The position numbers were made by a program, and so were the translations under genes. Shown here one piece after another: positions 6,690 to 64,000 of a stretch of DNA of 64,000 bases. The notes under the pieces were generated by a model. It was not told the origin of the DNA and did no database searches. It saw only the letters and a program-made list of their open reading frames with translations. The stretch comes from Mesostigma viride (taxonomy: Eukaryota; Streptophyta; Mesostigmatophyceae; Mesostigmatales; Mesostigmataceae), in contig RPFO01000076.1 of assembly GCA_009746045.1 (NCBI GenBank), forward strand, positions 362,434-426,433, given 5' to 3'. The number at the start of each line of letters is the position of its first letter. Position 1 is the stretch's first letter.

Positions 6690-6708
6690 TGTATTCATAA
6701 AAATCCCG

Positions 6709-26557: not shown

Positions 26558-26670
26558 GTGCGACTGACGACCCTCCTATTGGTGTCGTATCCAGACATCT
26601 GCCCATAAAGCATCACGTCTTCTAACTTTGCATACATTGGATTCTCCGGATCCTTGTTGTCTATCTACCT

Positions 26671-31809: not shown

Positions 31810-31812
31810 TTA

Positions 31813-40399: not shown

Positions 40400-40499
40400 T
40401 TACGGCTTGATCAGGCAATTTTTTTTTTTTGGAGAGTATATCGAGACAAATGAAAAAGACAATCCGAGCGTTATCCGTTCCTCGCTGCCAGATTCTACT

Positions 40500-41060: not shown

Positions 41061-41131
41061 TCTTATATATTTGATACATTAAGGAGACAACCACATGGCA
41101 GCAAGTATCACGGTTTTCCATATACACCGTT

Positions 41132-41215
41132 TCCATCCATCCATCGATCCATCGGGGTTAATGCTCCGCGACTCCCCAACGGGAGCACAAGTCTAATTAA
41201 TTAATTAATTAGTAT
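41132..41215. repeat. Dispersed repeat copy (also at 24463-24567)
   Basis: CCATCCATC, GGGGTTAATGCTCCGCGACT, CCCCAACGGGAGCACAAG, then TCTAATTAATTAATT. Same order as the copy at 24.5 kb, with short microsatellites at both edges. Confidence 0.75.
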
Positions 41216-41271
41216 ACAACGTTTCCCGTTCATCACAACCCTCAAACTTCTACTTCTGGACTCGCCAAATC

Positions 41272-41618
41272 AATCAACGAGCGTCGCCCATAAAAAAGCA
41301 CGACAAGGTATGACACTCCCAACATCCGACTTCAACTGTAAAATGCACGATTCGGCAATCTTCAAAACATGAAAAATGTCGTCCTCCTTGACACTGTTCC
41401 CGATTAGGGATCACGCTATGGCTTCCAACATCGCAATGTGGTCCAGCCAGTTATCTGTCTAAGCTACACTCTCGCACAACTTAATTTGCACGCCGACGGC
41501 ACCCGCACCCGCCATCTCAACACATAGCAAGCACTTAGTATGGCAAGCGGATTATGGCCTTATCCACTTCATAGCCCGCCTCACCCTTCAAAAGTTTCAT
41601 TACCGTCAATGTCTCGGG
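41272..41618 (-). pseudogene. Truncated, inverted paralogue of exon 2 of the long gene at 56-64 kb
   Basis: Minus strand: GTGCAG|CCCGAGACATTGAC begins like the acceptor and exon TCTGCAG|CCCTCCACGG at 57628. Further on, DDIFHVLKIAESCILQLKSD and VGSVIPCRAFLWATLVD match DDMYEVLKIAQSCILNLKED and VGRYFPRRALIWSTLFD. Several stops and a frameshift make it a pseudogene, and homology ends near 41272. The dyad array starting at 41816 lies in the position of the intron preceding this exon, as a dyad does at 57537 in the other copy. Confidence 0.7.
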
Positions 41619-41815
41619 CTGCACATAACACCGACGACAAAAAAACAGCCACGCATACCGTCGTCAAGCACCTGTAGTCCTAGTAAGTAAGTACTACGAC
41701 GCGTCGCTCGAAAACATTTACAAAAAATGATGCAAAGCAACGGAGGCATTTCGAAAGTATTCGACGAATCAAGTACCCCCGCACAAAAGCATGTTTCACA
41801 ACCTCGAATTGGGGA

Positions 41816-42392
41816 GGGGTCTCGCTGCAGCTAGACCCTTCCGTGAACGCAAAAAATAAACATCAAATAACTGGAAGGTCTTCCTGCAACTAGACCCCTC
41901 AAATCATACAAAGATGAAACATTGAAGTTGGGAGGGGTCTAGCTGCAGCTAGACCCTTACAGGAATGCGAAAAAACAACCAATAATTGGGAGGGTCTACC
42001 TGCAGCTAGACCCTTACATGCAATAAAAAAGGATGAAACCTGGGAAGTTGGGAGGGGTCTAGCTGCAGCTAGACCCTTACAGGAATGCGAAAAAACAACC
42101 AATAATTGGGAGGGTCTACCTGCAGCTAGACCCTTACATGCAATAAAAAAGGATGAAACCTGGGAAGTTGGGAGGGGTCTAGCTGCAGCTAGACCCTTAC
42201 AGGAATGCGAAAAAACAACCAATAATTGGGAGGGTCTACCTGCAGCTAGACCCTTACATGCAATAAAAAAGGATGAAACCTGGGATTCAAGTTGGGAGGG
42301 GTCTACTAGCTGCAGCTAGACCCTTACAGGAATTCGAGAACTTTATCACAAAAAATGAGTGACAGCGTCTCTCTGCAGAGAGACCCTTGCCA
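41816..42392. repeat. Array of GGGTCT...AGACCC dyads
   Basis: Ten dyads, most of the form GGGTCTAGCTGC joined to its inverse, at about 41816, 41877 (degenerate), 41935, 41989, 42055, 42109, 42175, 42229, 42297 and 42367. Between 41935 and 42290 they form a tandem repeat of about 120 bp holding two dyads per unit. All have a CTGCAG centre, so each can form a hairpin. Confidence 0.93.
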
Positions 42393-42394
42393 AA

Positions 42395-43512
42395 CATGCA
42401 AGGACTGGCGTGGGTGTGCTGGGTGGGATGCGTGGGTGTGGTGGGTGGCTGGCATGCGTGCGTGGGTGTGGTGGTGGGCTAGCATGTGTGCGTGGGTGTG
42501 GTGGGTGGCTGGCATGCGTGCGTGGGTGTGGTGGGTGGCTGGCATGCGTGCGTGGGTGTGGTGGGTGGCTGGCATGCGTGCATGGGTGTGATGGGTGGCT
42601 GGCATGCGTGCGTGGGTGTGGTGGGTGGCTGGCAGGCCTGCGTGCGTGGGTGTGGTGGGTGGCTGGCATGCGTGCATGGGTGTGATGGGTGGCTGGCATG
42701 CGTGCGTGGGTGTGGTGGGTGGCTGGCATGCGTGCATGGGTGTGATGGGTGGCTGGCATGCGTGCGTGGGTGTGATGGGTGGCTGGCATGCGTGCGTGGG
42801 TGTGGTGGGTGGCTGGCATGCGTGCGTGAATGTGGTGGTGGGCTAGCATGCACGCGTGGATATGTGGTGGGCTGGCCTGCGTGCGTGGGTGTCTGGGGTG
42901 GCTGGCATGCGTGCGTGGGTGTGGTGGGTGGCTGGCATGCGTGCGTGAATGTGGTGGAGGGCTAGCATGCGTGCGTGGGTGTGGTGGATGGCTGGCATGC
43001 GTGCGTGGGTGTGGTGAATGGCTGGCATGCATGTGTGGGTGTGGTGGTGGGCTAGCATACGTGCGTGGGTGTCGCGGGTGGCTTGCTTGCGTGCATGGGT
43101 GTGGTGGGTGGCATGCCTGCGTGCGTGGGTGTAGTGGATGGCTGCCATGCGTGCGTGGGTGTGGTGGATGCGTGCATGGGTGTGGTGGGTGGCTAGCATG
43201 CGTGCGTGGGTGTGGTGGATGCGTGGCATGCCTGTGTGGGTGTGGTGGTGGGCTGGCATGCGTGCGTGTGGTGGTGGGCTGGCATGCATGCGTGGGGTGT
43301 GTGTGGTGGCTGGCAGGCCTGCGTGCGTGGGTGTGGTGGTGGATGCATGGCATGCGTGCGTGGGTGTGGTGGATGGCTGGCATGCGTGCGTGGGTGTGGT
43401 GGTGGGCTGGCATGCGTGAGTGGGTGTGTTGGATGGGTAGCATGCGTGCGTGGGTGTGGTGGGTGGCTGGCATGCGTGCGTTGGTGTGGTGGGTGGCTGG
43501 CATGCGTGCGGG
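42395..43512. repeat. Minisatellite, about 30-bp units (GGCTGGCATGCGTGCGTGGG-type)
   Basis: About 37 units. Inverse of the unit family at 22977-23882, but with GTGGTGGGTGGCTGG in place of C-runs. Long frames in all phases on both strands are artefacts of the repeat. It ends directly at the shared flank 43509-43600. Confidence 0.95.
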
Positions 43513-43600
43513 GTGGTCCCACGCGGAATGGGGTAGATTTTTGCAAGAAAAAAACGCTAATTTCAATCGTCCGAAAACCGGACATTGCGCCGAAATTCTT
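43509..43600. repeat. Sequence flanking a tandem array, copy 2 (copy 1 at 26070-26170)
   Basis: GGTGGTCCCACGCGGAATGG and GCAAGAAAAAAACGCTAATT, TTCAATCGTCCG, as at 26.1 kb. The following 150 bases are rich in GCCGAAATT / GCGAATTTT words. Confidence 0.75.
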
Positions 43601-43958
43601 GCCGAAAATTTGGCAGCCGAGCGAATTTTTCGCCCGACGGACTTTGCGCCGAAATTTTGTGTCTGCCGTGCTTCGAACTCAACCGACTCCTGCTGTTGCG
43701 TGCACTTTGTCCGATGCCTGCAGGCCACGCACGAATTTTGCGACCGAAATATGACGACTAGACAAGTTTATCGACGACCTACATCGATCTATTGCCACTT
43801 TTGAAGTCCTTGGCTTGCTAGCAGCTATTGATTATCAATGCCGGGAACAAAATTGCCGAAAGTTTTTATTGAATCAGTACATATATGTGCACATGTCCGT
43901 AATTTTATCATTCGCAATTTTGACATTGTCGGAGTATTTGACAACTTAGGCATTGCGC

Positions 43959-44561
43959 CTAGAAAAAGGTGCCCCATCCGTCGATGTCAAAATCGCCGAA
44001 GGAGTACACTCCCTGGTACTGGTCTCCCCTGTAGTTGGGAGGCTCGCCTGTATACATTTTGGTGTTCCACTTGGCCCCGCCGTTCTCCGCAGCAGCCAGG
44101 AACTCCTGCTGGGCCTCGGCCCTCAGGCGCATCATTGATACATTGGGAGAGCCCGGAATTTCCGTGCTCTCCACCACCACTCTCGCCTGATTGTCAGGCA
44201 CGCATTGGTAAGCAGGGTTCAAATCTGAATCGGGTGGCACCAGATCGATCATGCCATTGCCGAACGCAATGACACCTGCACCCCACTGTGCAGAAGGTCC
44301 GAGCAACTCTACATCAATTCTGATGTTTGCAGCGTGCTCATTTTTGTCGACCATCACATAGGTATGCTGAGAACCGAAAATATTGCTCTGCTCCATTTGT
44401 GACAGTGTTAAATTTCGGCAAGGTTGGCTGCTTGCAATCGACAGGAAATTGGTGACCCCGACAGCCAGACGCGCAAGGGTTATAACTGCAGGTAGAACCC
44501 AAAATTTGTCGATAAGGAGTAATGGAAGGGCACGACCACCAGTCACTAGTATTCGCTTCAC
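43959..44561 (-). CDS. Hypothetical protein
   Basis: A minus-strand frame of 200 codons. The part from MEQSNIFGSQHTYVMVDKNE onward (about 44398 down) looks like real coding sequence: mixed polar and hydrophobic strands, QWGAGVIAFGNGMIDLVPPD, Cys/Pro-poor, ending DFDIDGWGTFF. The N-terminal part overlaps a Cys-rich frame (SYNPCASGCRGHQFPVDC) in another phase, so a frameshift or an intron probably lies near 44410. No family is recognised. It is adjacent to the dyad-bearing region but contains no dyad. Confidence 0.4.
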   Translation of the reverse strand: MKRILVTGGRALPLLLIDKFWVLPAVITLARLAVGVTNFLSIASSQPCRNLTLSQMEQSNIFGSQHTYVMVDKNEHAANIRIDVELLGPSAQWGAGVIAFGNGMIDLVPPDSDLNPAYQCVPDNQARVVVESTEIPGSPNVSMMRLRAEAQQEFLAAAENGGAKWNTKMYTGEPPNYRGDQYQGVYSFGDFDIDGWGTFF

Positions 44562-44564
44562 CGG

Positions 44565-44705
44565 ACACCTTTTTCAGCTTCCGGATAAAATTCAGCAAGA
44601 GCAGCGGCGATTAGATACTAAATATTGCGTTATTGGTTCGTACCGTACCCAGACAAAAATTGTACTAGTGACGCAATTGTACTAGGCGGAATGACAACTG
44701 CGCCC
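44565..44705. repeat. Fragment resembling the Harbinger subterminal region
   Basis: GGACACCTTTTTCAGC, AAATTCAGCAAG, GGTTCGTACCGTACC and TGCGCCCGG occur in the same order as at 32063-32190 inside the Harbinger element. Probably a decayed relative of that element. No terminal repeat is seen here. Confidence 0.6.
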
Positions 44706-44717
44706 GGCAAATAAGTA

Positions 44718-44929
44718 TTTATTGCTCCAACCCCACACCTAACTTGTTCCGGAGCTGTTCGAAGCGAAGAGCAATGGAGGGATCGGACCCGAGCCAGATT
44801 TGAGTGCGGAACATGATGGCTGGCCTACCTCACTCCGAACATTAAGGTGGACCCGGGTTCGAATCCTGTCAGTGCTATTCGCTTCGAACAGTTCCGGAAC
44901 GATTTTTTTTGTGGGGGTGGAGCAATAAA
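44718..44929. mobile_element. Short inverted-repeat element (MITE) of 212 bp with a pol III B-box-like word
   Basis: About 50 bases at each end are inverted: TTTATTGCTCCAACCCCACA ... TGTTCGAAGCGAA on the left against the inverse of TTCGCTTCGAACAGTTCC ... GGTGGAGCAATAAA on the right. The centre holds GGGTTCGAATCC, a good match to the tRNA T-loop/B box, but no cloverleaf could be drawn. No clear target duplication. Confidence 0.75.
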
Positions 44930-45206
44930 TTCTCGACATGCAGAAACAAATGTCGAATAGATTGTGCAAAAAAATATCGAAATCCTTATCATTATTTAAA
45001 TATACAGCATAAAATTATGTTGCAGTAAAAAATAACTGTTAATTGAAGGCCGCAAAAAATTATCAACTTGACCTCAGAAAGATCTCGAAAAATATATACA
45101 ATATATGCGGCCACCTTTTTACACCCTACTGAAGCCCCACTCTAAAGATATAATACGAGCCGAAACTAGGGCGTCGTCTACCCGCAGCGAGACCCCAATT
45201 TCTTGT
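44930..45206. other. AT-rich spacer with one dyad
   Basis: No gene. A dyad variant (GTCTACCCGCAGCGAGACCC) lies at 45176-45195, just past the stop codon of the DDE-like gene. Confidence 0.5.
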
Positions 45207-48200
45207 TTAAGTCGGTGCCGGCCCCTCCGGGGCTTCATCCTTGATCACCAGCGCAGTAAGCCACTTGTCGAGCTCCTTGCTCATCCTGATGTCGGCACAC
45301 ATTCCGTCGCTGCGCACGCGTGCTTCTAGCCGGAGAGCCGGAGCGACGCAGAGATAGCAATTCACAAGCTCGGGCTGGCGTGACGGTGGCCAATCCTCAA
45401 CGTTGAGCGTGAAATGCAGGGGGTCATGCTTATCCCGCTTCCAAATCCGAACGGGAAGAATGCCGTTCCCGGCGAGGAACAGCTCCTTCTCCCGTCCGTT
45501 CCGGCCCTCGACCCACCTCTCGAAGTTCTCGTCTAACACGATCGGCCCGGCTTCGCTTACAACCTCAGCCAACCAGAACGGGTGGATGGGATCGTGATCC
45601 GTGTCCTTGTCCGATGGAACTGCCACATAGTCGTGGAGTCTCATCTGCCGGCCCATCGCCTCCCGCTTGTCCTTCAGCTGCTCCCCCCGCGTCACCATGC
45701 GAACCGGAGGGTTGGGCTGGCTCGGTGGCAGCAAACGGACAGTTTTCATCGAGCTTCCTGCATCATTGAACTCGATGATAAACGACCACTCGCTTAGACA
45801 TCCCTCAAACCGCCCAGCCAAACAGGGCGGACAGTAGCAGGAATAGCGCCTAATCATCAAAAGGCCAGGGTCGGACTTGTCCAGTCGCCACCAATGCGCC
45901 TTCTTGATGCCAGGCACCTCCTCCACCTCCGCGCGTCGGCCGGACTCGACGTCCTGTCATCAAATAGTTAGGCAAAAAGAATACCGTTCAAGTTAGCAAA
46001 ATTGACCAAAAATCAATAAAACAGGGTATAGCTGCAGAGAGACCCCTTACAAAAAAAAAATTAACGACAAGACATCAAGTGATCAAAATTCGACACAGGG
46101 TATAGCTGCAGAGAGACCCCATTCGAATCATAATAACAACGTACGACAAGATATTAAGTGATCGAAATTCGACACAGGGTATAGCTGCAGAGAGACCCCA
46201 TTCGAATCATAATAACAACGTACGACAAGATATCAAGTGATCGAAATTCGACACAGGGTATAGCTGCAGAGAGACCCCTTCATACCGATAGAACAAGCGA
46301 AATTTCATACCTAAAAGAAAAGCAACCCATTGACAGTATATAGGGTCTCTCTGCAGAGATACCTTTATTGGGTTTGAATTTTTATAGAACAGCGGCAGTT
46401 GACGTCTTAAAACCTGAAATAACACACAATTCCGTACCGGGGGTAAAAGGAAGAAGTGGCGAGTGACGTTCTCGGCCCGCGCGCGGGCCGACTCCCTGCT
46501 CGATGTCTTGCCGCCCTGCCAGTTCTGGTTCAAGTAGGCGACTAGCTGGTGGGTCTCAAGTATGTGCTGGTTTTCGGGAATCCTCTGCATTTCCCTCAAG
46601 ACGCACTTGCACTTCGCTCCTTGACCATCCACCTCCCCCTTCCCATGCTGCTCCCCCATGTAGTGGAACTCAAAGGCCTGCAGGTCGGGATCCCCCATGA
46701 GCAGACCGTTAATCTGGTTAATCACGTACCTGGACTTAAACTGCACCGCGCAGTTGTCCGAGCACATGTACAGGTTTCGCACCTCTACCCCTACTTCTAC
46801 CCGCAGGGTTTCCAGAATCTTGCGAAGAGCGTATACGAGTGCGCGCTCGCCCCGCTTGATACTGGAATCCCCCAGGAAAAAGAAGACGCGCTTTTCCAGC
46901 TCGCCGTTGAGCCGATAACGCACGATCATGGGCATCAGGATGTGGCTGCGCTTGTGGAAGTACTGCGACTGCAGTTGGACGTAGCTGCTGTTCTCGTAGT
47001 TCTCGGCCCAGTCGCCGTGCACGAGCACGTCCCCCTCTCTCAGATTCTTCTCCCGATCCTTGATTGTATCCGCCTGCGACCAGGCCGTAAAGCAGTGCAC
47101 GGTGAACTTGTCCCACCTCTTAAGAATCTCGTCCCGCAGCTCAGCTGGGGTGGACCTCATTTGGACTTGCTCGGGCCGCTTCACCTTCTTCGCCGCCCTG
47201 CCATCGGTCTCGCCCTGTTTCGCAAAGGTCCGCAGACAGTTTCGATTTGCAATAAAATCGCATTTCGATCAGATAACTGCAACTCACAAAGGGTCTCGCT
47301 GCAGCTATAGGTCACAAAAAAAAAAGTCAACAACATTTAACGGAGAAATAAATCGAAACCTACTCACCCTCACCCTCGGGTCACAGTCTGCTCCACCATC
47401 TCGAACTTGAACCAATTCAGAATCTCCGTGGAATTCTTGTCCCGATCACACTGCACCCAGTTATTATGGATGCCGCATGATTCCTCAGGACAGAACCCCT
47501 CCACACACGCCATCTTCAGTATGCGGTGAACCCTCTCCGTCCTCGGCACCCCATCTTCGTCCTCCACCAGCCTCTCAGAAATGTCGAGGTCTTCCAGGTC
47601 CCGTCCCCGCCATTCATCTTCCCCCTCCCCCTCTTCCATCCCCCCGCCCATTCCGCCCCCTTCACGCAGCCCGTTATCCCTGCCGTCAGTCTCGGCGGAC
47701 ACCGGGCAGTGAAAGTGCTTGATCCAGTCCGTCGAGTGAATGGCTTTCCACATTCCGCAAGTACCGTCCGGCTGTCTGTACTTGGAGCATCCCGCACACT
47801 CCGCGCCACACTTGCAGTTCTTGCCGTGGTTCGCATTGCAGTGCTTGGTCCACGCCCCCATGGCCGACTGCATGGTGACGTGCTTCTCACACGCGCACAG
47901 GTTCCTCTCCTTCCACTTGCCCTTGATGCAATCGGGCGCGTATTTGCAGAAGGTCGTGTAGCCCACGTGAATGCCCACGTCCTTATCATACTGGTTACTC
48001 CTTTTGTTCCAGTACGCATGCTTTTCGAGAAAGTGATTGTACATGTCCTCCTTGGAGGTCATGTAATAGCGCGCTCCCTCAACGGCGACGAGCACCCCGC
48101 GATTGCCATGACCCTCCCTGCTGTAAGTGCGCTTGACATCCTTCATCTGGGAGGAGGCGCGCGACTCATCATCGTGCATCCACGCGTCCACTATCGCGTC

Positions 48201-49291
48201 AATCACGAATTGCGGCAAAGGGCGCCCCTTGCGAGCCTGCGCGTGTCTGAGGTAGTCCAACTTCTGCTGCCTTCGTATCGCGCGAATTCCGCGAATCTTC
48301 TTGGCGTCCATCCCCGTCAGGTTCTCCAACTCCGCGGCCGAAAACTCCTTCTCCAAGTCGTCACCACAGTAAAGCGTGGACATCAGCACCATCCTGACGT
48401 CTCTGTCTGCGTCGCTTTTGGTCAGACCATCAAAAAAGCCGTTAATCCGAGCCACCCAGAACCTGTTCAGTTCTGCCATCCGCTCCTGATTGTAAAGCTT
48501 TTTCGCCTCCTCATGATACTTCCCGTGACCTAGTTCAGCGGCCCTAGAGTTAAAGCCAGCAATCATCTGGTCGAAAGCCGGCCCCCGCCCCTCGGGTTTT
48601 GTCATCGCCTGAGCCGCTTCAAACGCCTGGTCAGCGAAATATTCCCCAATAACCCTCTTTGATTTCGAGTATTCTCCCGGCCGCTTGACTTCCTTGGCTT
48701 CAGGCTGCGCTGGATTCTGGTTCTCATCTCCGAAAACCCTTTTTGCGCCAGTTGACTGCTTCGTCCCGGTGTTCAACTTAATTGCACTGAATCCTGGACG
48801 ACCGGACGCAAGGGCGAAAACTCCCACCCGTTCGCGTGCTGCATGCCATGACGACCGGCACAACGAAATCCATGCAAATCGAGTATCGTTGGGAAAAGCG
48901 ACAATTACAGACAAAGTTCGAAAGTGTATCATTTTTTACCACGATTGGGGTCTAGCTGCAGCTAGACCCTTAGAGGGGCTTTTTCCGTTAGACGAAAAGA
49001 TTACCTGATGTGGTGAACTTAGCATACCCCGACCAAGATTGGGGTCTCGCTGCAGCTAGACCCTTCATTGCGGCGTGCGATTGTTAAATCACAGACTTCT
49101 GATTCATTAATTTTATAGCAACCATAAAGAGGGTCTAGCTGCAGCGAGACCCTTGAATTTAAGCTATTGCTTGTGGTTATAAATGGTCTAGCTGCAGAGA
49201 GACCCCAATAAGGACGAAAAGATTTCAGGTTTTCCTCACCTTCGCGGCTCATTCTCTTATTAGTTCTCCCAGAACACTCAGATACCTGCAT
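45207..49291 (-). CDS. Four-exon gene for a DDE-like nuclease/transposase of unassigned superfamily
   Basis: Exons on the minus strand: 49291-49240 (MQVSECSGRTNKRMSRE), 48838 to about 47372, 47214-46438, 45953-45207. Junctions 1 and 3 join in phase. The end of exon 2 is uncertain. Exon 2 is Lys/Arg-rich with a Cys/His cluster (LCACEKHVTMQ, HCNANHGKNCKCGAECAGC). Exon 3 has VLVHGDWAENY, MCSDNCAVQFKSRY and HYMGEQHGKGEVDGQGAK, a D...D...(E/D) pattern. It resembles a widespread, poorly characterised family in animals and algae (DFAENY, SDG..QYK, HGKG..DG..), as I recall it. Exon 4 has SCYCPPCLAGRFEGC, which may bind zinc. All three introns contain dyads. An uninterrupted catalytic exon suggests function. 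Mobility is inferred. Confidence 0.65.
46019..46366. repeat. Tandem dyads in intron 3 of the DDE-like gene
   Basis: Four tandem copies (about 46024, 46098, 46176, 46255) of a 78-bp unit containing GGGTATAGCTGCAGAGAGAC, with GTACGACAAGATATCAAGTG between, and a fifth dyad at 46343. The left arms are changed (GGGTAT), so these form imperfect hairpins. They fill most of the 484-base intron. Confidence 0.9.
48939..49208. repeat. Four dyads in intron 1 of the DDE-like gene
   Basis: At about 48946, 49040, 49129 and 49185, spaced 55-95 bases apart, with arms GGGTCTAGCTGC / GGGTCTCGCTGC and their inverses or with GAGAGACCCC on one side. Intron 2 holds one more at 47288-47311. Confidence 0.9.
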
Positions 49292-49640
49292 GGCGAGAAT
49301 AACAAAAATAACACAGTAGCATTGATAAAATTGTTTATCAGAAAATATATATACTAATTACAGTATATTTTGCAAAAGATTTTATAATATATTGTGAATA
49401 GCATGGTTAAATTCCACATACTTTAATAATATGGTATGTTAAAGTATATAGAATCATTATTTAGTAAATGATTTACAAGAAAAAGTGGTATAGACTATTA
49501 TTATTATATAGTTCGGCAATCTATGATAGTAAGACATACCGGATGTCAGGTTTATCAGCGGCCTCCAGGGCTATAGCGTCTCGCTGCAGCGTGACCGTTT
49601 GGTGCTATGACTGATTTCAGTAGATGTGCAGAAAAAAATT
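49292..49640. other. Very AT-rich spacer with one dyad
   Basis: A run of TATA/ATTT-rich DNA lies upstream of the DDE-like gene's first exon, where its promoter would be. A dyad variant (GCGTCTCGCTGCAGCGTGAC) lies near 49577. No specific promoter element can be defended. Confidence 0.4.
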
Positions 49641-49647
49641 TATTTCC

Positions 49648-49718
49648 ATGACCACACCAGGAATCGAACCCAGAACCTCATTGTACATTTCTGCATGGTA
49701 ACGATGTCAGCCAAACAT
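49648..49718 (-). other. tRNA-like fragment
   Basis: On the minus strand, GGTTCTGGGTTCGATTCCTG resembles a tRNA T-arm with B box, with GGCTGACATCGTTACC about 30 bases upstream where an A box might be. The T stem needs G-U pairs and I could not fold acceptor and anticodon arms. It is probably a tRNA-derived repeat or pseudogene, not a working tRNA. Confidence 0.3.
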
Positions 49719-49990
49719 CCGAATGTTCCCAGGTAAATGGGCTGGAGGTCGTCTCTTTTTATACCTGCGGCCACAAGCACGGGTGACGGCATATTGGATG
49801 TCGTCCAATCCGCTAGCTTGGTTCCAAAAGATGGGATCGAGCTTTTGCACCAGCGCCGCGCTTCCAGTTTTCAGTTCCGTGGGGAGGAACGAGGATGCCA
49901 CGTTTCCAATTTTTTCAATACCGTTCAGCCCTGTGACGCCGCGTCCGGTTTGCGAATTGCGACCGTCCCATCGCCCATCGAAAAAGAAGC
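49707..49990 (-). CDS. Hypothetical exon
   Basis: Minus-strand frame FFFDGRWDGRNSQTGRGVTG, then NGIEKIGNVASSFLPTELKT, LVQKLDPIFWNQASGLDDIQ, and a basic end GRRYKKRRPPAH. It has the look of coding sequence, with Trp/Phe/Asp at regular spacing, but no family is recognised. A half dyad at about 49992-50011 lies at its upstream edge, so it may be an exon bounded by a dyad-bearing intron. Confidence 0.35.
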
Positions 49991-50029
49991 GCAGCCGCAG
50001 AGAGACCCCATAGCTAATAGTAACCAGCT

Positions 50030-50756
50030 GCAACCGTTTGCATGCTACCTGCTTTTTTACAACATCGCTTTGCTACCTGTGCATAACGAAAGGAAATCGG
50101 TCTTCAAGCAATTAAGGCAATCGGTCTTCATTTTCCCGCATAAAGAAAAAAGGTGAGCTTTTGCCGCATCGTGGATGGTAGGCTGACAAACTGTTCTATC
50201 AAAAACGGCAACTAAACAGCGCATGCACGCCGACGACACAGTTAGCCAGCTGGGCGAAGACATGTCCTTGCTGCCATCGCAAGAAACTCTATGTTGCAGC
50301 AAGAGTGATAAAAATGTCTGGCTTCCTTCTTTTCGTTGCTAGCTAAACCCTGCAGACATCTCGGTAGAGTCAGCTAAGCCGATCCTAATCCACATCTGGC
50401 ATCCATCCCTTTAGTCTAGTTGCCATGGAGCGTTTCTTGGTCTCGCACATGTCGATCATGGTGGTGCTAGGCTTTCACTTGGGTCACCCTTTCCATGTTT
50501 GCTATGCCTTTGGTCTGGTTAGGTTATAGGTGTAGATGTGCACATACTGCATTTGCTGCGTTTCTAATCGGTGCTCCTGTTTGATGCTTTTTTTCCCCTT
50601 CATATCGTTTCGACGTTTGCATGCTACCTGCCGGATTATAACATCGGACGTTGCTACCTGCCTGCATAACGATAGTTTGCAAGAAATCTTCATTTTGCCG
50701 AAACACAAAAAAAGGTGATCTTTTGCCGCAACGTGGATGGTAGGCTGACTAAAATT
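50030..50756. repeat. Imperfect direct repeats flanking a spacer
   Basis: 50033-50185 and 50613-50748 share GTTTGCATGCTACCTGC, CATAACGA, TTCAAG/GCAAG...TCTTCATTTT and TTTTGCCGCA(T/A)CGTGGATGG TAGGCTGAC. The second copy runs directly into the minisatellite. The spacer between them has no gene. Confidence 0.75.
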
Positions 50757-53740: not shown

Positions 53741-56175
53741 GGTCGTAAGGGTCTCGCTGCGGGTAGACCCTCGGAATTTTGTTTTTGTATTGACGTAAGG
53801 GTCTCACTGCAGCGAGACCCCAAGGAATGTCAATTTTTCATGTTTTCATGATGGGGGGGTCTTTCTTTTCTCACCCTTAATCGGGGTTCTTTGAACGGAG
53901 TTTCTTCTATACGTGAATGCGGGAACAAGAGGCCGCTGGATGAGCGGCTTATAGGTCGCAGTGTTTACTCGTAGCTGTTTGGCTAGAGCTTTTGTGATTA
54001 GTAGATGCAATATAGTGCATGGTTGAAAAATGAATTAAATAAAATGTGCGTTCCGCGCTTGGGTTGATTATACCCGGGCGGAACGGGGCGTGAGGTGCAG
54101 TGCCCCTGAAAAGAACAACCTACGCATTATTTAATACTAGCCGTGCAGATTCGGGATATTCTACCCCCGGTCTGTACGGTTAGCGTCTTACTAGCATCCA
54201 CTAAACATAAGGGTTTAATGACGTCAGTTAGCTAGGGATAAGGGAGGTTTTGCGACTAAAAGCCGCTCTGGCTGGTTTTGTCGGCCTCTTTCTTTGCTCG
54301 TTGTCGTTGCGGCGGCAGCCGCAGCTATGGGTGCTGCGGAGCAAAATCCCAAAAGCACTGGTTGCACTGGCCACTTGGCCAGTGGTGAGACTTCCAGTTG
54401 TTAACCGGCCAGGCGTAGTTCCTCGCCCGGTTAACTAAAAGAAAAGAAAAAGATTACCTCCGGTCCGCACCTTTTCCCCAGCTTGGGGTCTTTGGTGGGC
54501 CGGATGCCGTGACAGGTGCTCAACTGTCGCTTGGTCGGCCCAGTGCGCGAGCTGGTGCTCCGTACCTGGGGATGCTTGCACCCCGGGTTGGAGCCGGATG
54601 GCTGGCACTGGCGACCCGTGTCTCGGTCCGCGGCCTGCGGCTTTTTCTTCGGAAATTGCTGCTGGCCAGCAAACTTTGCAATTGCCTTCCGCCGAGGGGG
54701 GGTGGTTGGGGCTGGGGACGGCGATGGGAAAAGCGTCTAAGCTAGAAATTTTTTCCCCACGCATAGAAACCTCGGGGGGAATGCGGTCTTGGCTGAACGG
54801 ACTCTCGTTCAGCCAGGTGCCTGGGGCTGTGGCCTCGGGCATCCGGGCTGGCGGGGCCTGGGCTAGGTCCACGTTTTTTCTCGAAGCACCCCGGGTCTAT
54901 GGGGAGACGGCCATAGCGGTACCGACTCGGGGCCCCGAGAGGGGTCATGATAGGCTGGCCGTGCGCAATCGCAGTGCAAATGCGCTGGGCCTTTTTGGGC
55001 CTGGCCATGCATCCACAGCCGCCGGGCACACGCCTCCCGATGTGGGGGGGCTCCCGTTTTGCGGCAGGGCGGTCACTTGTGACAACGAGCAAGGTGGAGT
55101 GCGGCTTCAAGGGAAAGCCAGGGCGGGGGTGATTGGGCAACGTACTTCATGAAGGGCCTTGAACGGCGTGCCTCCGGGCATGTCAATTAGTGTCACATGT
55201 ATGCTTCCACTTATTGTTTTAATGAAGATGCTGGTTTTTGTGGGAGCTACGTGGGACATGAATCGGGGTTCTTTGAACGGAGTTTCTTCTATACGTGAAT
55301 GCGGGAACAAGAGGCCGCTGGATGAGCGGCTTATAGGTCGCAGTGTTTACTCGTAGCTGTTTGGCTAGAGCTTTTGTGATTAGTAGATGCAATATAGTGC
55401 ATGGTTGAAAAATGAATTAAATAAAATGTGCGTTCCGCGCTTGGGTTGATTATACCCGGGCGGAACGGGGCGTGAGGTGCAGTGCCCCTGAAAAGAACAA
55501 CCTACGCATTATTTAATACTAGCCGTGCAGATTCGGGATATTCTACCCCGGTCTGTACGGTTAGCGTCTTACTAGCATCCACTAAACATAAGGGTTTAAT
55601 GACGTCAGTTAGCTAGGGATAAGGGAGGTTTTGCGACTAAAAGCCGCTCTGGCTGGTTTTGTCGGCCTCTTTCTTTGCTCCCCACCCACCCACCCTTGTC
55701 TTGGTTGCCTCTAGGGCAACGTACTTCATGAAGGGCCTTGAACGGCGTGCCTCCGGGCATGTCAATTAGTGTCACATGTATGCTTCCACTTATTGTTTTA
55801 ATGAAGATGCTGGTTTTTGTGGGAGCTACGTGGGACATGAAAATGATTTGTGTTTGTATCGGTGTTAGGGTCTCGCTGCAGCGAGACCCCTACGAATGTC
55901 GACTTTTAATGTTTGCAAGATGGGAGGGGGCTTTCTTCGCTCACCCTAAAAATGATTTGTTTTTGTTTGACGTTAGGGTCTCGCTGCAGCGAGACCCCAA
56001 GGAATGTATACTTTTTTATGTTTGCATGATGGGAGGTTGCTTGTTTTCGCTCACCCTAAAAATGATTTGTTTTTGCTTGAAGTGAGGGTCTCGCTGCAGC
56101 GAGACGCCAAAGTTTTGCATTAAACTAAATGTCCCTTTTAGAATCCACGAAAGGGTCTAGCTGCAGCGAGACCCT
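53741..56175. repeat. Dyad-bearing tandem repeat of about 115 bp, interrupted by a split-direct-repeat element
   Basis: Dyads at about 53745, 53798, 55866, 55974, 56086 and 56152. Three units share the order dyad, GGAATGT..., TTTTTATGTTTGCATGATGG, CTTTCTTCGCTCACCC and TAAAAATGATTTGTTTTTG. The element at 53879-55841 splits one unit between CTCACCCTT and AATGATTTG. The intact dyads here are the best formed of the window (GGGTCTCGCTGC plus inverse). Confidence 0.92.
53879..55841 (+). mobile_element. Split-direct-repeat element, family III, copy 2
   Basis: A1 53881-54299, internal 54300-55134, B1 55135-55260, A2 55263-55680, spacer CCCACCCACCCACCCTTGTC and on, B2 55714-55839. Near-identical to 37265-39229, with a few substitutions such as CGGTCTGTACGG. 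Neighbouring tandem units read CTCACCCTAAAAATG at the target. Here CTCACCCTT-AA-TCGGGG and GACATG-AA-AATG frame the element, so the joint is again AA. The internal region has a 184-codon frame (54598-55152) running into B1, which I regard as chance. Confidence 0.88.
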
Positions 56176-56251
56176 CCCCATCGTTTTTCTGCCGGCGATT
56201 CAGATTCTGAATGACATTTGTGAAACTTGCTTTTTTGATATTGTTCTGCAG

Positions 56252-59200
56252 ATGTCGTCCTCCTATTCCGATTCTGTCAAGGCCACTCCCGTTTCACCCA
56301 AGATGACGTCGAACACCTCGCCGGACCGAACGGCAACGGAGGCGTTTCCTCCGTTGCAGTTCGGTCCCGTAAATGCTCTGCGAGGTCCCCCCCACCGAGT
56401 CCCCTCGCCCTCCAAGTCCAACTTGCCCCCCAGCGAGTTGGACAGAATTATACCCCCCAACCCTCTCGCTGCTGCGTCTCGCGCTCCGTCCCGCTCTCCG
56501 CCCCGTAAGTCTCCATCGCCGCCCCCAAGTCGGCCGGAGCTACTGCGTCCCGCTCGCCGCCCCGCAAGTCCCCCAAGTCCCCCGCAACTGCGACCCGTTC
56601 GCCGAACCGCAAGTCCCCCTCTCCGCCCAAAGTTCCCCCCGCTACCGCGTCCCGCTCTCCTTCTCGCAAGTCCCCCTCGCCGTCAACCAAGAACCCCGCA
56701 ACTGCGTCCCGCTCGCCGTCCCGCTCTCCTTCCCCCAAGTCCCGCTCGCCGCCACCCAAGTCCCCCGCTTCTGCGTCCCGCTCGCCGTCCCCCAAGCATT
56801 CCAGTTCTAAGCGTAAGCCTGCGGCCGAGTGGGTAGAGGAAGACGACCGCACCAAAGAGCTCAGGAAGCTGAGGAAGTCTATCAGTGAGCTTGTTGAGGA
56901 GGACGAGCGCGATCAGACTAACGGGAGGCCTGAAGACCCGGAATCGCCGGTTCGGGAGTCGCGTCAGAAGCGGTTGTCCGATTTGTTAGCAATGGCCGCA
57001 AGCTTTGCTGACGAATACGCGGCTCTCGACAAGAAGGACAAGGAGAAGGAGAAGGCGGAGAGGGAGGCCATCGAGAAGGCGGAGAGGGAGAGGGTGGAGA
57101 GGGAGGAGAAGGAGAGGCTGGAGAAGGCGGAGAGGGAGGAGGAGGAGAGGGAGTACAAGGAGAAAAAGGCTGCCCAGGAGAAGGAGCACAGGATCCTGGT
57201 GGCGAAGCAGAAGGAGGAGGCGAAGAAGAAGACGGAGGCGGCAGCGAAGGAATTCTTGCGGAGGAGGCCGCTCTTTTTTTGCAGATGCGACAGGAGAGGA
57301 TGAAGGCGGAAGAGGCCGCGAGGAAGATGGAGGAGGAGGCTGCGAGGAAGGAGGAGGAGGCTGCGAAGGCAGTTGAGGGGGAGAAGGACGAGAACGGGAG
57401 CCCACCCCTTCTTCACGAAGGATTTTCAGTCGATTATCAGGTATGTTTATTAATGTGAGACGTACATTTTTCAGATGGCTTGAACGGCGTGTGTGTATCG
57501 TAGAAAGGGTGGGATTTTATGTCATACATTGATCGTAAGGGTCTAGCTGCGGAGAGACGTTGACCTAGGAGTTAAGGTTGTTGACGACGACGATGTGTGG
57601 CCTTTTTTTTACTCTTGTTGTCTGCAGCCCTCCACGGTGGCCATTCTGAAACAGTACCTGGCTCAGGCTGAGTCTGAGTCTGGGGTGAGTCGTAAAGCCG
57701 AAAAGGGCTTGAGAGGCTTGATCCGCTTTCTTTCGGCCGAGATAGGTTTGCAGAGAAGTCCGGTGTCGTCGTGGACCGTCCGGAGTCGGCACACATAATT
57801 TGGAAGAACGACCGCTGGGCCAGCTTGCATTGTTCGAGCCACACTGCGAGCCATTCATGGGAAGAGGGTCGTTGGTGACGACATGTATGAGGTTTTGAAG
57901 ATCGCGCAGTCGTGCATCCTTAATCTGAAGGAGGATGTCGGACGTTACTTTCCCCGTCGTGCTTTAATATGGTCGACGCTCTTTGATGAGGTTGAAAAGT
58001 TCGAGGTCCACATTGGCTTCACATGCATCGAGGCTTCCTATATGGAAACCTTGAAAACCACTGCGTTGCATCAGCTCTTTAAACTCATGACTGGAGATAT
58101 GAGAGCGGATTCGAGGGCTTCACTGTCGGAAGATGAAGTGTTTGATATTGTCAGGCAAGGATTTGTTGACACGTCCAACAGTGACTTATCGTAATTGTGC
58201 CGGGAAGAATGAATGACGTAGGAGGATTGGAGGAGCGCGCACATGAAGTGATCGCGCATTTGGACATGGCAAGAGACCACTTACTGCAATCTTTTGTTAA
58301 GTGGCGGACTGACTTTCTTGTAGCCCGGACGCCAGCCTTTCGCGGGAAGCGGTCGCTTTCTTTTTGGATTGGGCTGGACAGGTGATCCAAAGTTTCCGGC
58401 ACCGGGAGGACTTCCATGTTATTCAGACATATAAGCCATACCGGGAATCGTCCAGGAATGGTTGGATCAAATCTCGTTGGTTGATTGTCTCCAGAGTATC
58501 CGAACCAAGACAGACACGGAGTGGTCTGATTTAGAGGCGGGAGGCCATTGGCAGTCCCTCGAGTTGTTCTTCGAGGCGGAATTGAGGCGGCAACTGGAAA
58601 AGGAGAGAGCCCATCAAGTGCCGATATGGCCTTTGGGGAAGATTTTGAGGAGGTGGAAGTTCTACGTTTCGGTACGTTAACTTGCCGATATCGTTTATCG
58701 ATTTGGGTTGTTTCCATTCCCTGAATAGGGCTCTATATGCTGACCAACCTTCATGGTTTGTCCTGTCATATCATGCAGGGGGGCTCCATGCCAGGGGACG
58801 TATCGGAGGATTTACCTAATTTGTCAGACTTGGTTGATAAGGTGGGTGCTTGTCCGTCGAGTTTCCACGAGCATCTTACATGGGGTCTAGCTGCAGGTAG
58901 ACCCTCACCCTTTTATTGAGACTGACATGTTCGGCTAATTTCAACGGTGCCCCCAACCAATCTGTTGTCTTTTTTCAGGGGGCGGCTGCGGCGATGGCTG
59001 TTGACAGTGCTGGTATTTGGTCTGGACTCGAGATGGAAATGGTAAGCATTAAACGATATCCGGATGTCTGCATTTCGCCTGAAGTTTTAGTGAGCGCATT
59101 ATGCGAAATATACAAATATCGACTAATTTTGATTTCCAATGAGCTGTCGTATTCGGTGTTGACAGGCGGGGGGTTTGGCCTCAGCAGGCGCTGCCGGAGA

Positions 59201-62200
59201 GGAAGAAAACGCTGGAGGAGATGAGGATGGGGGGGATGAAAACGCTGGAGGAGATGAGGATGGGGGAGACGCTGAGGGAGAAGTGGCTGTGCAGGTACGT
59301 TCATCCGCCGCGAGTTCGTGTGATTTTTTTCGTGCTGAGGGGTATCTCCGCAGAGAGACGATGGTGCAACAATCGAACTGAGGTCAAGTCCCTTCTTGTT
59401 CGTTTTTTTTTGTCATGCAGGCGGGGGCTGTCGCTGGGGGTACTGCGGGGGGGAAGGCGGCGAAGCCTCCATTGACTGAGCATGAAAGGGAAAAGCTGGA
59501 TTCCCGCAAGAAGGTTGCGAAGGATCATATTATTGCTGTTGGCCTGATCATGCTTAAGTCTCCGCCCGATGGCGTCGATTCGGAGGGACCTGCGGGGTCC
59601 GAGTTTCGCAAGTACCTGACACGACTTGAGGCGGAAGTCGATGCCGATTTCGATACGGAGGTGTTGGGTGACGCTACCTTTAAGAGTGAATTGGCATATG
59701 AATTCGCAAATCTGGTGAAGTCGAAAGCCACCAAGAATTTCAAGTGGCAGCCTAAGGAGTACTCAGAGGCAAAGGTTGACAAGATCGAGAAATTCATGAA
59801 GGCTGATTTTCGTCGTCGGGCCGCTGAGGGAAAAAGGGCGCTGAATGCGGTGGCAAAGGCCAACAGTAAGAAGAACGCGGAGGCGAAGGCGGCGGAGAAG
59901 GAGGCGAAGAAGGCGGAGAAGGAGAAGGCTAAGGAGGCCAAGAAGCAGCAGAAAACTGGACAGGTACGATTGTTGTGAAAATTTAGACCTCTCGCTGCGG
60001 GTAGACGCTGACCGGCTGCGGGACTTGGTGTTTAGTGTCAGTAAGGTACTATTCCAACAGAACTTTGTTCGTCCCTGAACAGGATGTCGTGGTCGGCCTA
60101 AAGATTACTGACTTGAGCAAATCCTGCGGTCCTTTTCGATTTTTTACTTCAGGATGACGGGGGGGACGAAGACGCCACGGTGGAGAAGAAGTTACCTGGT
60201 CATGACGCCGTGTTCGCGCTGGTGAAGGATATGCTCAAGTACTGCTCGAGTAGGCGGATGGCGGACGTCGATGACCTGCCAAACTGGCCCGAGTTCTCCC
60301 CCTTTCTTGAGCTGCTCCGGTCACTCAACAAGCTTTTTAAGGAGGGGGTGCTCACGAGCAGTGGGAACCCGGACACCGACCCTATCATTGAAAGCTGGAA
60401 GCCTTCGAAAAAGGTCGACTCGAACAAGGAGGTCAGGGACCAGAACATCCGGAAGGCCAATACTCTCAGGGAAACGCGTTGGATTCGGCCGGCCGATTTT
60501 AAGCAGACCGGATGTTTCAGTATGCGGATCCAGACGGTCAACGCGCTTATTTTGCCAGAGGCTTTGAGGCAGCGGCGTTTAAACCTTGAAACCATTAAGG
60601 AGAACGCCGCATTCTCCTCAATGCGCGGGACAACGCCTTGCACTTCAAGGTTGTTGTCCCGGTCTGGCAGTTCCCTTTCCAGGCGCTTGCCGAATCTCAA
60701 CCTGACCTTTCGACAAGCAAATCTTGTGCATGCCGGATTTCGTCAAGTGGCTGAAGCATCACCACGGCGCCAAGATTGACGCGGAGGATGTGGGGTCCAG
60801 GTACTTCCGGCCCCTTTCGGATACTGAAGTCGACGTGTGGCTTAACACGGAGTCCACCACCTCTTTCCTCGCGAGAGGACTTGAGTGGCGTACCTACGCC
60901 AGGTGGACGAGGTGGAAGCAGTTTTGCCTCAGGAGATCGAGGGCAGTCGGCAAGTTTTCAACCTGCTGTGCAATACTGCGATGAAGTCCTACGATCCGAA
61001 ATTTTTTGAGGAACGGGTACCGGTACCGTATCTGGTTCTCCGGTACGCGGTGGTGGATGGGAACCACTACTTTAAGGGGTTAAAGTCGTTTCTCAGGGGG
61101 CCGGATGGCGGGTGGGGAGAGGTTCGGGCAATGATGTGCGAGGGTGGGGCGGAGTCCAATTTCGCAAATACTCCTAAGGAGGCGGAGCACGCTTCCAGGA
61201 CCTGTTGCGGAAATTCCGTGGTGGTTACATGGGTACGAACGTCATTCTTCTCAAGGGTGGCGACCTGCTCCCGTCGTGGAGTGAGCGAAATCTACCTAAG
61301 GCAAAAGAAGATGTAAGCTATCTATTTTGGCAGGGTCTAGCTGCGGGTAGACCCTCGGAATTTTCGTGGTTGTTTTTTGTGTGCGCTTCAAGTTTTTTGC
61401 GAGGGTCTCGCTGCAGCTAGACCCTCTCCTTTTTTTTGTTGGAATTTTCGTTGCGTATTGTCGGCCGTTTCTTTTTCGAATTTTGTTAGGGTCTATCCGC
61501 AGCTATACCCCTCGCCTTTTATGACTGAGTTTTGTCGTTGCTCGCTCGATGTTAATTGATGTCGCAGGCGGTGCTGACCGGCAAGCTGGAGAAGCTGTTC
61601 GACATCGCCAAGGGGGCGAATTCGGAGGACTTAGCCGTGGCGGATCGTACGCTGGGCCAGGCGTTGCTTGACGTGTGGAACTACAACAAGCTATATCTAT
61701 ACGGCAAAGTCACGCGTGGGAAGGGCCACTATATTGCGGATGGCCACTACACCAATCTGCTCACGTACATCCTCCCGGCTATGCGGCAAGCGGGGGGAAG
61801 GGAAGGGAATGTGGAGCCGGCAGCGGTGGATGTACACGAGGAGGAAGCAGAAGGAAAGAAAAAGCCGGCCCACAGCATTGCTTCAGTGCATTCCGCTTAC
61901 AGTCGCACGCTGGCCAACACGTTTCTCCGTCTGACACAGGAGCAGACTGATGATCCTGCCTCAACGAAACCCGCGCCTGAGGAGGTGATGATGCAAAGGT
62001 GCAAATTCGCCAATGCAGAGGGGGAGAAGAAAGGCCAGAAGGTCTCTTGGACTTCTTTCAGGAACTTGGCCAGCCTTCCTATGATGGACGCCGTGATCGA
62101 TTGCATCATGAGCTGCCAGGTTGGACCGGAAAAGCTCACCAAGTTGGTGGAGATCGCCAAGGATGTGCTGGAGTGCCTGCGGCTGACCATTTGCGCCAGA

Positions 62201-62734
62201 TTCAAGGAGGATGAGACGCTGGAAGCGCAATGCAAGGACGCAAATGGCAAGGAGTTTGTGGCGTCTCATATTTTCGAACTCGTCTTCAATCTCCATCCTC
62301 TCGCTCGGCCGGTCGGCAGGAAGGAGATTGTGGCCAGATACCGGGAATTTTGGGATGTGGCCGTCATCATAACGAGGAACATCGCCTACCTTCTTAAAGC
62401 CAAAAAACACGCCGCACATCTGAGGATTCCGAGAAAGGATATCAGTAATGGCAAGATCGACTTTCAGGAGATTCTGCTAAAAGAGAGCGAGGACAAGACG
62501 GTGGGTTTGGCACTTTTGCTCCGGAAGCGTTCAGGAAGTACGCTCCAAAAGTTGGATTACTCGAAGGGGGGTGAAGGAGGCGGCGATGAAGGGGCCGGTG
62601 AAGGGGCTGGAGAAGGGGAAGGGGAAGGGGAAGGAGACGGAGGCGAAGAGGAGGAGGAGGAGTGGGACGTGAAGTATGAGTGGCAGAGTGTGGACTGGGG
62701 CCGTCGCCGGGTCTGGTTTTGCTGTCAGGCCTAG
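56252..62734 (+). CDS. Long multi-exon gene, unknown nuclear-type protein with SR-rich, coiled-coil and acidic parts
   Basis: Exons by GT-AG sites: 56252-57439, 57628-58671, 58779-58841, 58979-59041, 59166-59294, 59421-59963, 60153-61312, 61568-62734. Exon 1 encodes RS/SP repeats (SPSRSPSPKSRSPPPKSPAS), EWVEEDDRTKELRKLRKSI and a Glu/Lys/Arg coiled coil. Later exons are helical: DMYEVLKIAQSCILNLKEDV; KDHIIAVGLIMLKSPPDGVD; LTGKLEKLFDIAKGANSEDL. A Gly/Glu tail ends exon 8. Frameshifts near 56520, 57250, 57790, 57830, 58190, 58370, 58510, 60610 and 60940 mean it is decayed or the assembly has indels. Five of seven introns hold a dyad. The ATG follows TTCTGCAG, itself acceptor-like, so earlier exons may exist. 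No family is recognised. Confidence 0.55.
57537..57560. repeat. Dyad in intron 1 of the long gene
   Basis: GGGTCTAGCTGCGGAGAGAC, a degenerate copy about 100 bases after the donor site. It occupies the position of the dyad array that precedes the truncated paralogous exon near 41.6 kb. Confidence 0.8.
58883..58907. repeat. Dyad in intron 3 of the long gene
   Basis: GGGTCTAGCTGCAGGTAGAC followed by CCT. It lies between the two 63-base exons. Similar degenerate dyads sit in the next introns at about 59340 (TATCTCCGCAGAGAGAC) and 59985 (CTCTCGCTGCGGGTAGAC). Confidence 0.8.
61333..61510. repeat. Three dyads in the intron before exon 8 of the long gene
   Basis: About 61334 (GGGTCTAGCTGCGGGTAGAC), 61402 (GGGTCTCGCTGCAGCTAGAC) and 61487 (GGGTCTATCCGCAGCTATAC). 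The first starts 22 bases after the donor GTAAGC at 61313. Confidence 0.88.
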
Positions 62735-64000
62735 ACGGTGATGATGATGACAAGTCGCTCGTCAAGCAGGTGGCAGGCGAGGTTGCCTCAGCTTCAGCCC
62801 GCCCCTTTCCCTTGGGCAGGTCCCTTCCGTGCCTGAGCCTGCTGAACTTGGCGAACATTTGGGGTGATAAGTGGAGTAACTTTCAGAGAGGTGGTGGGCG
62901 TTCGGTCCTTGCCCGACAGCTTCGTCCATTCCCCAACCGGGCGGGATGTACGATAATGTGCTGAAGGCTTGCGCCCACGACTTTTTCTCCAGGTTCGAAC
63001 CGATGGTGATCGTGTTTGGTACCGAGACGGAGATTAAGGGGTTTCAAGAGATAGTGGAAAGGATCGGGAAAGGGAGTGAATTGTGGGAGCGGCTTGAACA
63101 GGGGGAAGGTGATGGGGGCCTAGGCTCGGAAGGGCGAAGAAGCGAAAAGCTTCCCACGAAGCTGGGGGATCGTCCGCCGTGGTGGAGAGGGATGACCAAC
63201 AGTTGTTGGAGGGAGGGGATGGAGGGGATGGAGGTCCGGCAGGAGGGTCTAACCGCGGAGAGACCCCCGTCGAGGTCAGAACGCAGCAGGCCGAACAGAG
63301 GACGGGGCCTGAAGGTGATTCGGATCCGCCTGCGGCGAAGAAGCCCGCTTCTCAAGTGACTCGACGGGCAGTCGTGTCACTTGTTGAGGATGATGGAGGT
63401 GGGCCTTCCAAGCCTGCCGCGTCGCAGCCCGTTTTTCAGGTTCCGAAGAAGCAGCTTCGGGTTCCCCCGGCGACTCTGCCCACCCCGGCGCCTCTGCCCA
63501 GTTCTCAGGTACCGAAGAAGCAGCTTCGGGTTCCCCCGCCGACTCTGGCCATTTCTCAGGTACCGAAGAAGCAGCTTCGTAAGCCAGTTGTGGCAGTGGC
63601 TGATTCGGACGACGATGCTGAGGAGGAGGAGGAGGAGGAGGACGACGATGCTGAGGAGGAGGAGGAGGAGGAGGAGGAGGAGGAGGAGGAGCAGCACGTT
63701 GCTACCAAGAAATCCGCCAAGGGTGGGAAGGCTGCGGAGCACGTTGCTTCCAAGAAATCGGCCAAGGTGGGAAGCCTCCCAAGCCTGCCCTGCCTCAGAA
63801 ACGGCGTCGAAAAGCAGTTGTGCTTTCAGATTCGGACGATGAGGAGGAGAAGGAGGAGGAGGATGGCGGCGGAGAGGAGGAGGACGGGGGAAAGGAGCGC
63901 GTTGCTTCCAAGAAGTTACCCAAGACCGCGAAGACTGCCAAGGTTGCCGAGCCCGCCAAACCCGCCCCGGCGCCTGCCCCCCACCCCAGAGGGTCTACCT
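62735..64000 (+). CDS. Continuation of the long gene or a following gene: acidic / lysine-rich repeat protein, open at the window end
   Basis: Frames LDGDDDDKSLVKQ (about 62727) and MYDNVLKACAHDFFSRFEPM (62946) are followed from about 63308 by EGDSDPPAAKKPASQVTRRA and three copies of QVPKKQLRVPP-type repeats. Twice there is a module of (V)VxDSDD, a long Glu tract, then HVASKKSAK / RVASKKLPK; KRRRK may be a nuclear localisation signal. A one-base shift near 63770 separates the two modules. Acidic tracts alternating with SKK motifs resemble histone-binding or nucleolar proteins in composition only. A dyad variant (GGGTCTAACCGCGGAGAGAC) at about 63244 suggests one intron. The start of another dyad ends the window. 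Confidence 0.4.

Follow-up and report, generated by a model that had tools for sequence, protein, structure and literature searches.

The 64,000-nucleotide window analysed here (C998:362434-426433 of the 440-Mb Mesostigma viride assembly, to which all genome-wide counts below refer) carries a copy of what we judge, with a probability of roughly 0.8, to be a giant, recently mobile terminal inverted repeat (TIR) DNA transposon of this alga, in which a protein termed A would act at the termini and dispersed palindromes would serve as lineage-specific binding sites. The element recurs as units of about 20 kb with inverted termini and 4-bp target duplications, and its gene A is found at more than 100 loci. 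It is accompanied by non-autonomous derivatives as well as by a second family with three corresponding genes, all of which are under constraint between the two families. DNA transposons longer than 20 kb that carry genes beyond the transposase are unusual, and Mesostigma is among the earliest-diverging streptophyte lineages.

Ends, genes and copies of the element

The family-1 copy in the window comprises the following features (ORF, open reading frame):

43511..64000, + strand: family-1 transposon copy, from its left end to past the window end; left boundary common to five copies, collinear with the copy C1a
43507..43510, no strand: target duplication TGCG, 4 bp
43511..43574, + strand: left terminal inverted repeat GGGTGGTCCCACGCGGAATGGGGT...
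43959..44396, - strand: ORF C, about 145 amino acids from the first ATG (MEQSNIFGSQHTYV...)
45207..45953, - strand: gene A, exon 4
46438..47197, - strand: gene A, exon 3, RNase H/DDE-like core with DWAENY ... SDNCAVQFKSR ... GEQHGKGEVDGQG
47374..48838, - strand: gene A, exon 2, conserved Cys/His residues
49240..49252, - strand: gene A, exon 1 (model), MSREA...
50757..53733, + strand: central minisatellite with a 30-bp period, between the divergent genes A and B
56252..64000, + strand: gene B, a large multi-exon gene of no catalogued family, continuing past the window end; reading frame disrupted in this copy

Alignment of the window with four other copies places the left boundary at 43,511, on which all five agree, while the right end lies about 1.0 kb beyond 64,000 as judged by collinearity with C1a (C1:7872255-7892912; 20,658 bp), the shortest of the four copies with both ends. 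In these four the right end reads as the inverted form of GGGTGGTCCCACGCGGAATGGGGT; in C1a the first 24 bp match exactly, and 64 bp on the left align, with gaps, to 73 bp on the right. Compared with the other copies, C1a has an identity of 96-99% over most of the long aligned blocks; the value falls to 92.8-95.5% in some, including those with the repetitive centre, and to 83-86% in a small number of short blocks. The 20-bp core of the TIR has 386 exact matches genome-wide and none in a reversed control. When 20 TIR pairs were picked by hand from the 100 matches listed with positions, 17 had identical 4-bp flanks, compared with 2 of 380 when flanks were cross-paired between copies, and duplication lengths of 3, 5, 6 or 8 bp fitted no pair and 7 bp a single one. 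Of the four long copies with both ends, three are bounded by the duplications CTAA, GCCA and AGGG, and the fourth lies inside a run of G (by eye). In the 20 pairs the duplications are mixed in composition and often GC-rich. Both a duplication of fixed length (4 bp) and terminal inverted repeats, as expected of a TIR class II transposon, are hence present, and the large transposon proposed in a first-pass annotation of this DNA is supported by blocks of about 20 kb that share their ends.

The DDE-like nuclease gene of that annotation also proved real, as gene A can be modelled from 49,252 to 45,207 in four exons encoding an RNase H/DDE-like protein of 994 amino acids. Its annotated relative P0001 (98% identical) has MSREARERV preceded by 12 residues and a different splicing of intron 2. 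A search with exon 3 yielded 130 matches, distributed over 123 loci, and 100 of the matches reach 98% identity or more; as 123 of 989 candidates were scored, this count is a lower bound, and gene A is repeated at no fewer than 123 loci rather than single-copy. At five loci, including the one in the window, exon 3 is 100% identical, by which the element looks young. The contigs for which TIRs are listed hold 32 of the exon 3 loci. For 25 of these, an exact TIR is found at most 4 kb away on the expected side, in 16 cases at a distance of 2,700-2,710 bp; for the other seven, no suitable TIR is listed on the contig in two cases and the TIR lies 5-39 kb away in five. Four family-1 copies differ in gene A by 13 synonymous and 33 non-synonymous codon changes, with gaps in each copy, and no signal of purifying selection was seen among these young copies.

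Gene B, predicted earlier as a long multi-exon gene from 56,252 onward, likewise holds as a gene despite its broken frame in this copy, and a third conserved frame absent from the earlier annotation, ORF C, lies beside A and B. The open frame around ORF C is kept in family 2 at 53% amino acid identity; no match was found in Pfam, the one database scanned for it. Near the 3' side of gene A, a self-inverted repeat (about 73%) occupies 44714-44933.

Family 2 is marked by the protein P0002, which is 60% identical to A and gave at least 45 matches (45 of 1,622 candidates scored). The only copy of this family that was read end to end, C1:2457890-2478263 with 20,374 bp, shows the gene order of family 1, a 30-bp minisatellite of its own and the TIR GGCCGGGCCCACTTCGAATGTTCCG, which agrees with that of family 1 at 14 of the first 23 bases (by eye); its flanks, TAGT and TAAT, form a near duplication in this one copy. 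Between the families, synonymous (dS) and non-synonymous (dN) divergence amount to 1.08 and 0.30 for gene A, and to 2.4-3.1, near saturation, and 0.32-0.34 for two pieces of gene B, the other three pieces of which share 28%, 40% and 56% of their amino acids. Judging from these rates, constraint acted on the genes of the element as the families diverged, even if individual copies drift at present.

Palindromes as putative protein binding sites

The family-1 palindrome, GGGTCT(A/C)GCTGCAGC(T/G)AGACCC, is sited in introns and gene starts. Its exact half-site GGGTCTMGCTGC occurs 34 times in the window, always within 41,817-61,424, against a mean of 0.04 and a maximum of 1 in 100 shuffles. The 22-bp dyads GGGTCTNNCTGCAGNNAGACCC number 36 at up to 4 mismatches and are missing before 41.8 kb, which agrees with the first-pass count of at least 30 copies from 41.8 kb on and none earlier; at 5 mismatches, chance-level matches emerge, four of them before 41 kb. 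Within the element the dyads are distributed as follows:

44478..45195, no strand: two dyads of weaker match, with 3 mismatches, one at 44,478 on the 5' side of ORF C's first ATG, the other at 45,174 on the 3' side of gene A
46024..46364, no strand: five dyads in gene A intron 3
47291..47312, no strand: a single dyad with 4 mismatches, in intron 2 of gene A
48948..49205, no strand: four dyads in gene A intron 1
53749..56174, no strand: dyad array 5' of gene B, at 53,749; 53,799; 55,868; 55,976; 56,086; 56,153; split by a 2-kb passenger
53879..55841, - strand: passenger insertion, foreign to the element, 99.4% identical to 37,265-39,229 inverted
57539..63266, no strand: dyads within gene B, in introns at 57,539, 58,883, 59,340, 61,333, 61,403 and 61,489, and at 63,245 outside the modelled introns

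All three introns of gene A and four of the seven modelled introns of gene B (five when one 5-mismatch site is counted) thus hold the palindrome, which further occurs upstream of each gene and at a single site in gene B that falls in none of the modelled introns, and several dyads form tandem arrays with units of 57-120 bp. The passenger, a 1.96-kb unit with 421-bp direct repeats that overlaps the start of a Harbinger-type transposase ORF, is present in two inverted copies in the window, one of which interrupts the array upstream of gene B.

Genome-wide, the half-site has 4,142 matches compared with 52 for the reversed pattern, and among the first 100 places listed many clusters reproduce the spacing seen in the window. 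On contig C1, for which the listing of places is complete, an exact TIR is found no more than 25 kb away for 9 of 11 dyad clusters (0.43 on average and at most 4 at random) and no more than 1 kb away for 7 of the 11 (0.026 on average and at most 1 at random), so the dyad is linked to the element and not scattered independently of it. Both ends and two exact dyads are preserved in a 586-bp miniature element, C1:7893012-7893597. Among the 100 places listed, eight half-site pairs, including the one of this miniature, have a spacing of 225-227 bp and suggest that further miniatures exist beside the one that was read. Neither viral contigs nor contigs of prokaryotic genomes gave a match to the full dyad.

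In family 2 the palindrome takes the form GGGTCGC(G/T)CTGCAGAGTGACCC (pattern by eye), with 33 sites at up to 5 mismatches; five mononucleotide shuffles contained no such site. At up to 2 mismatches, the family-1 copy contains 19 sites of its own type and 0 of the other, and the family-2 copy 7 of its own and 2 of the other. The positions of the palindromes along the elements of both families are similar (by eye), while their sequence is shifted as a set, and such family-specific variants suggest DNA sites that co-evolve with a cognate protein.

These data are consistent with the following mechanism. Protein A, probably an RNase H/DDE transposase, would cut at the GGGTGGTCCCAC termini and insert the element with a 4-bp stagger. 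The palindromes may be DNA binding sites of an element-encoded protein that they would recruit, with B as the first candidate, being the second large conserved gene, and C as the second. Once bound, this protein would coat or compact the 20-kb element and so unite its distant ends, and/or regulate its promoters, similar to TNPA on En/Spm. The palindrome of each lineage would have drifted to its own form, presumably together with the cognate protein. How cut-and-paste transposition handles ends 20 kb apart becomes a testable question with such family-specific dispersed palindromes, and a second one is whether related transposons stay independent through site repertoires specific to each element. 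Only tentatively, and at somewhat below even odds, do we extend this to a new superfamily of giant transposons in which a dedicated protein reads dozens of internal palindromes across 20 kb as a requirement for transposition, and in which a lineage-specific address co-evolving with its reader keeps related families separate.

The palindromes might instead bind a host protein, such as a transcription or silencing factor, whose sites the element merely gathers, and such a factor would suit the dyad arrays that in both families lie, by eye, close to the 5' ends of genes A and B. A shared host factor would not, however, predict family-specific dyads, whereas the dyad differs throughout family 2 by the own-type and other-type counts given above; the TIR linkage of 9 of the 11 C1 clusters also speaks against a host protein, which we therefore regard as unlikely. 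We give the same low credence to functionless selfish short repeats spread by gene conversion or unequal exchange. Homogenisation by unequal exchange is open to the tandem arrays, but the dispersed copies share just the 22-bp core, as the nine dyad clusters of C1a (36 pairs) are 78% identical within the core and 25-27% identical, which is chance level, in their flanks, and two dyads were retained by a 586-bp derivative that keeps little else. Less probable still is a function as RNA hairpins in introns and leaders, acting on splicing or RNA stability. Most dyads do lie in introns or gene starts, and a short stem is possible; across 16 distinct family-1 dyads, however, the variable opposite positions form Watson-Crick pairs in 9 of 16 cases where 7.6 are expected and in 6 of 16 where 6.75 are expected, and this lack of covariation between the arms favours DNA half-sites over an RNA hairpin, as does the retention of two dyads by a miniature too short for A or B.

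Relation to known transposons

A profile search of 5.8 billion proteins, with 7,997 candidates scored, returned only two proteins for gene A, P0001 and P0002, both from the Mesvir1 annotation of Mesostigma, where they are counted as ordinary predicted proteins, so that some of the genes counted for this alga may belong to the element. No relative of gene A outside Mesostigma appeared in word-seeded searches, nor of protein A in viral contigs or of P0002 in phages, and sequence searches of Phrogs, NCBIfam, Pfam and PDB gave nothing above cut-off or convincing. For gene B, none of 7,999 scored candidates reached an E-value of 1 in one search of 5.8 billion proteins; this says little on relatives elsewhere, as Mesostigma's own annotation is likewise without a match. 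Pfam was scanned at E-values up to 0.1, and up to 1 in a second scan, with the exons of A apart from exon 1, P0001, P0002, the pieces of B apart from its small exons, and C; no transposase domain was found in the scanned exons of A. A comparison with the VIA list bears only on the known transposase families that this list includes.

Among the systems that resemble it most are En/Spm (CACTA) elements such as the 20.5-kb soybean Tgmt*, which passages in PMC2613891 describe as large, with a transposase and a second, divergent DNA-binding product, and with many short repeats in inverted pairs that diverge between families along with the second proteins, TNPA acting at the subterminal repeats. The Mesostigma element shares the large size, the second gene, the many short inverted-pair repeats and their family-wise divergence. 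Unlike En/Spm, its termini begin with GGG (GGGTGGTCCC) instead of CACTA, its duplication is 4 bp and not 3, its repeats span the whole length in place of the subterminal regions, and it has three genes, of which A and B are divergent; we do not place it in EnSpm/CACTA. Sola2, in the part of the literature that treats it (PMC3627910), is a DNA transposon with TIRs and AT-rich 4-bp target duplications; TIRs and a 4-bp duplication are found here as well, but the Mesostigma duplications are mixed and often GC-rich, in a comparison made by description. No sequence link to Sola emerged in the profile search above, with its two Mesostigma proteins.

Passages in PMC10045372 and PMC6431247 report 4-bp duplications for Ginger1 and piggyBac, 4-5 bp for Ginger2, and large size for Polintons, so that the present element resembles the former in its duplication and the latter in its size. 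The integrase and DNA polymerase B Pfam families are absent from the scanned exons of A, P0001, P0002, B and C, which speaks against membership in Ginger or Polinton. The target duplication of piggyBac is TTAA, which none of the 20 pairs shows, and DDE_Tnp_1_7 is found only in another protein of the window, at 26938-29130. Harbinger/PIF is linked with the domain DDE_Tnp_4, which is absent from the scanned exons of A, and a 3-bp duplication fits 0 of 20 pairs. P0002 shows a sub-threshold match to DUF7869 (PF25273) over the region of the second Asp (E 0.12; 12.3 bits against a cut-off of 26); a profile comparison with a resident DUF7869 protein gave nothing, and no known gene A locus was among the PF25273 genome matches (150 scored of 275 candidates), so that a kinship of A with DUF7869 is not supported beyond this weak hit. 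The DUF7869 transposons of the Mesostigma genome are multi-copy too, and one was seen to be bounded by inverted repeats as well, yet its terminus GAGGGGATTCAT differs. This DUF7869 element lies inside one transposon copy (L021:5994-8249; C2:4787993-4790248). In the open-licence literature we found neither a mention of DUF7869 by name nor a description of this Mesostigma element.

A TIR DNA transposon is a known kind of element. Beyond the TIRs, none of the defining features examined for piggyBac, CACTA, Ginger, Polinton, Harbinger or DUF7869 elements is present apart from the duplication length, which is that of piggyBac, Ginger and Sola. By the Repbase rule as stated in a passage of PMC4455052, a superfamily is set apart by transposases for which iterated searches fail to converge. 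With the candidate transposase and both companion proteins outside catalogued families, the element may add a superfamily, for which we regard it as a candidate.

The older element into which the copy inserted

Among the TIRs listed, a second group of pairs is spaced by 10,285-10,286 bp, with four cases on C36, C80, C280 and C335. The only member read, E80 (C80:300151-310464), has family-1 TIRs, a pair of dyad arrays and a pair of minisatellites with a 30-bp period; of the genes, it keeps no more than relics, of A (35% amino acid identity, E 6e-4) and of B (41%, 55% and 59%, one piece inverted). The window contains an inverted, interrupted member of this type at 26,075-43,510, in three pieces, the last of which contains a gene B relic:

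26075..26658, - strand: right end of the E80-type element, TIR at 26,075; 99.5%
31036..31806, - strand: middle piece of the E80-type element; 97.3%
40400..43510, - strand: part of the E80-type element hosting the nested insertion; 91.9% to E80 5856-8976
41273..41447, - strand: relic of gene B, diverged, within the E80-type element

The hosting part contains the dyads at 41,817-42,386 and a minisatellite at 42,429-43,510, and since 26,075-43,510 matches the E80 group, the relic at 41.3 kb and the dyads at 41.8-42.4 kb belong to the older element. The first-pass annotation, which had the element region begin at 41272, is corrected accordingly to a start at 43,511. The truncated, inverted copy of part of gene B that it placed at 41272-41618 does exist as an inverted partial relative, but it is a relic of another lineage (69.7% nucleotide identity between 41,273-41,447 and 57,987-57,814; 43 residues at 58%), and its end at 41,618 was not reproduced. 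Contig C85 has an identical 40-bp left flank and, after its element, TGCG followed by minisatellite, which reveals the target duplication of the window copy; the C85 and window copies may be one insertion assembled twice. The E80-type element is older, diverged and non-autonomous, and its minisatellite was the site at which the 20-kb element inserted. That the whole block arose instead by segmental duplication or as a cluster of host genes is highly improbable, for although passages of the published genome report describe many segmental duplications (PMC6947507), such an origin is at odds with the precise inverted termini, the differing flanks, the 4-bp duplications and an insertion point in a minisatellite where TGCG stands to the left and to the right of the element.

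Minisatellites of 30-bp units lie between genes or relics in all three lineages (window 50757-53706; family-2 copy 9343-11915; E80 2793-3874 and 5850-6969), with units that differ but are partly alike, TGCCAGCACC being present in those of two lineages. Between two of the E80-type pieces, 26938-29130 holds an open frame of 730 amino acids with the piggyBac-like DDE_Tnp_1_7 domain (E 3e-33). A young repeat is found at 19636-21434 and 29028-30825 as a 1.8-kb inverted duplicate of 99.8% identity, each copy of which has internal direct repeats of 257-259 and 124 bp.

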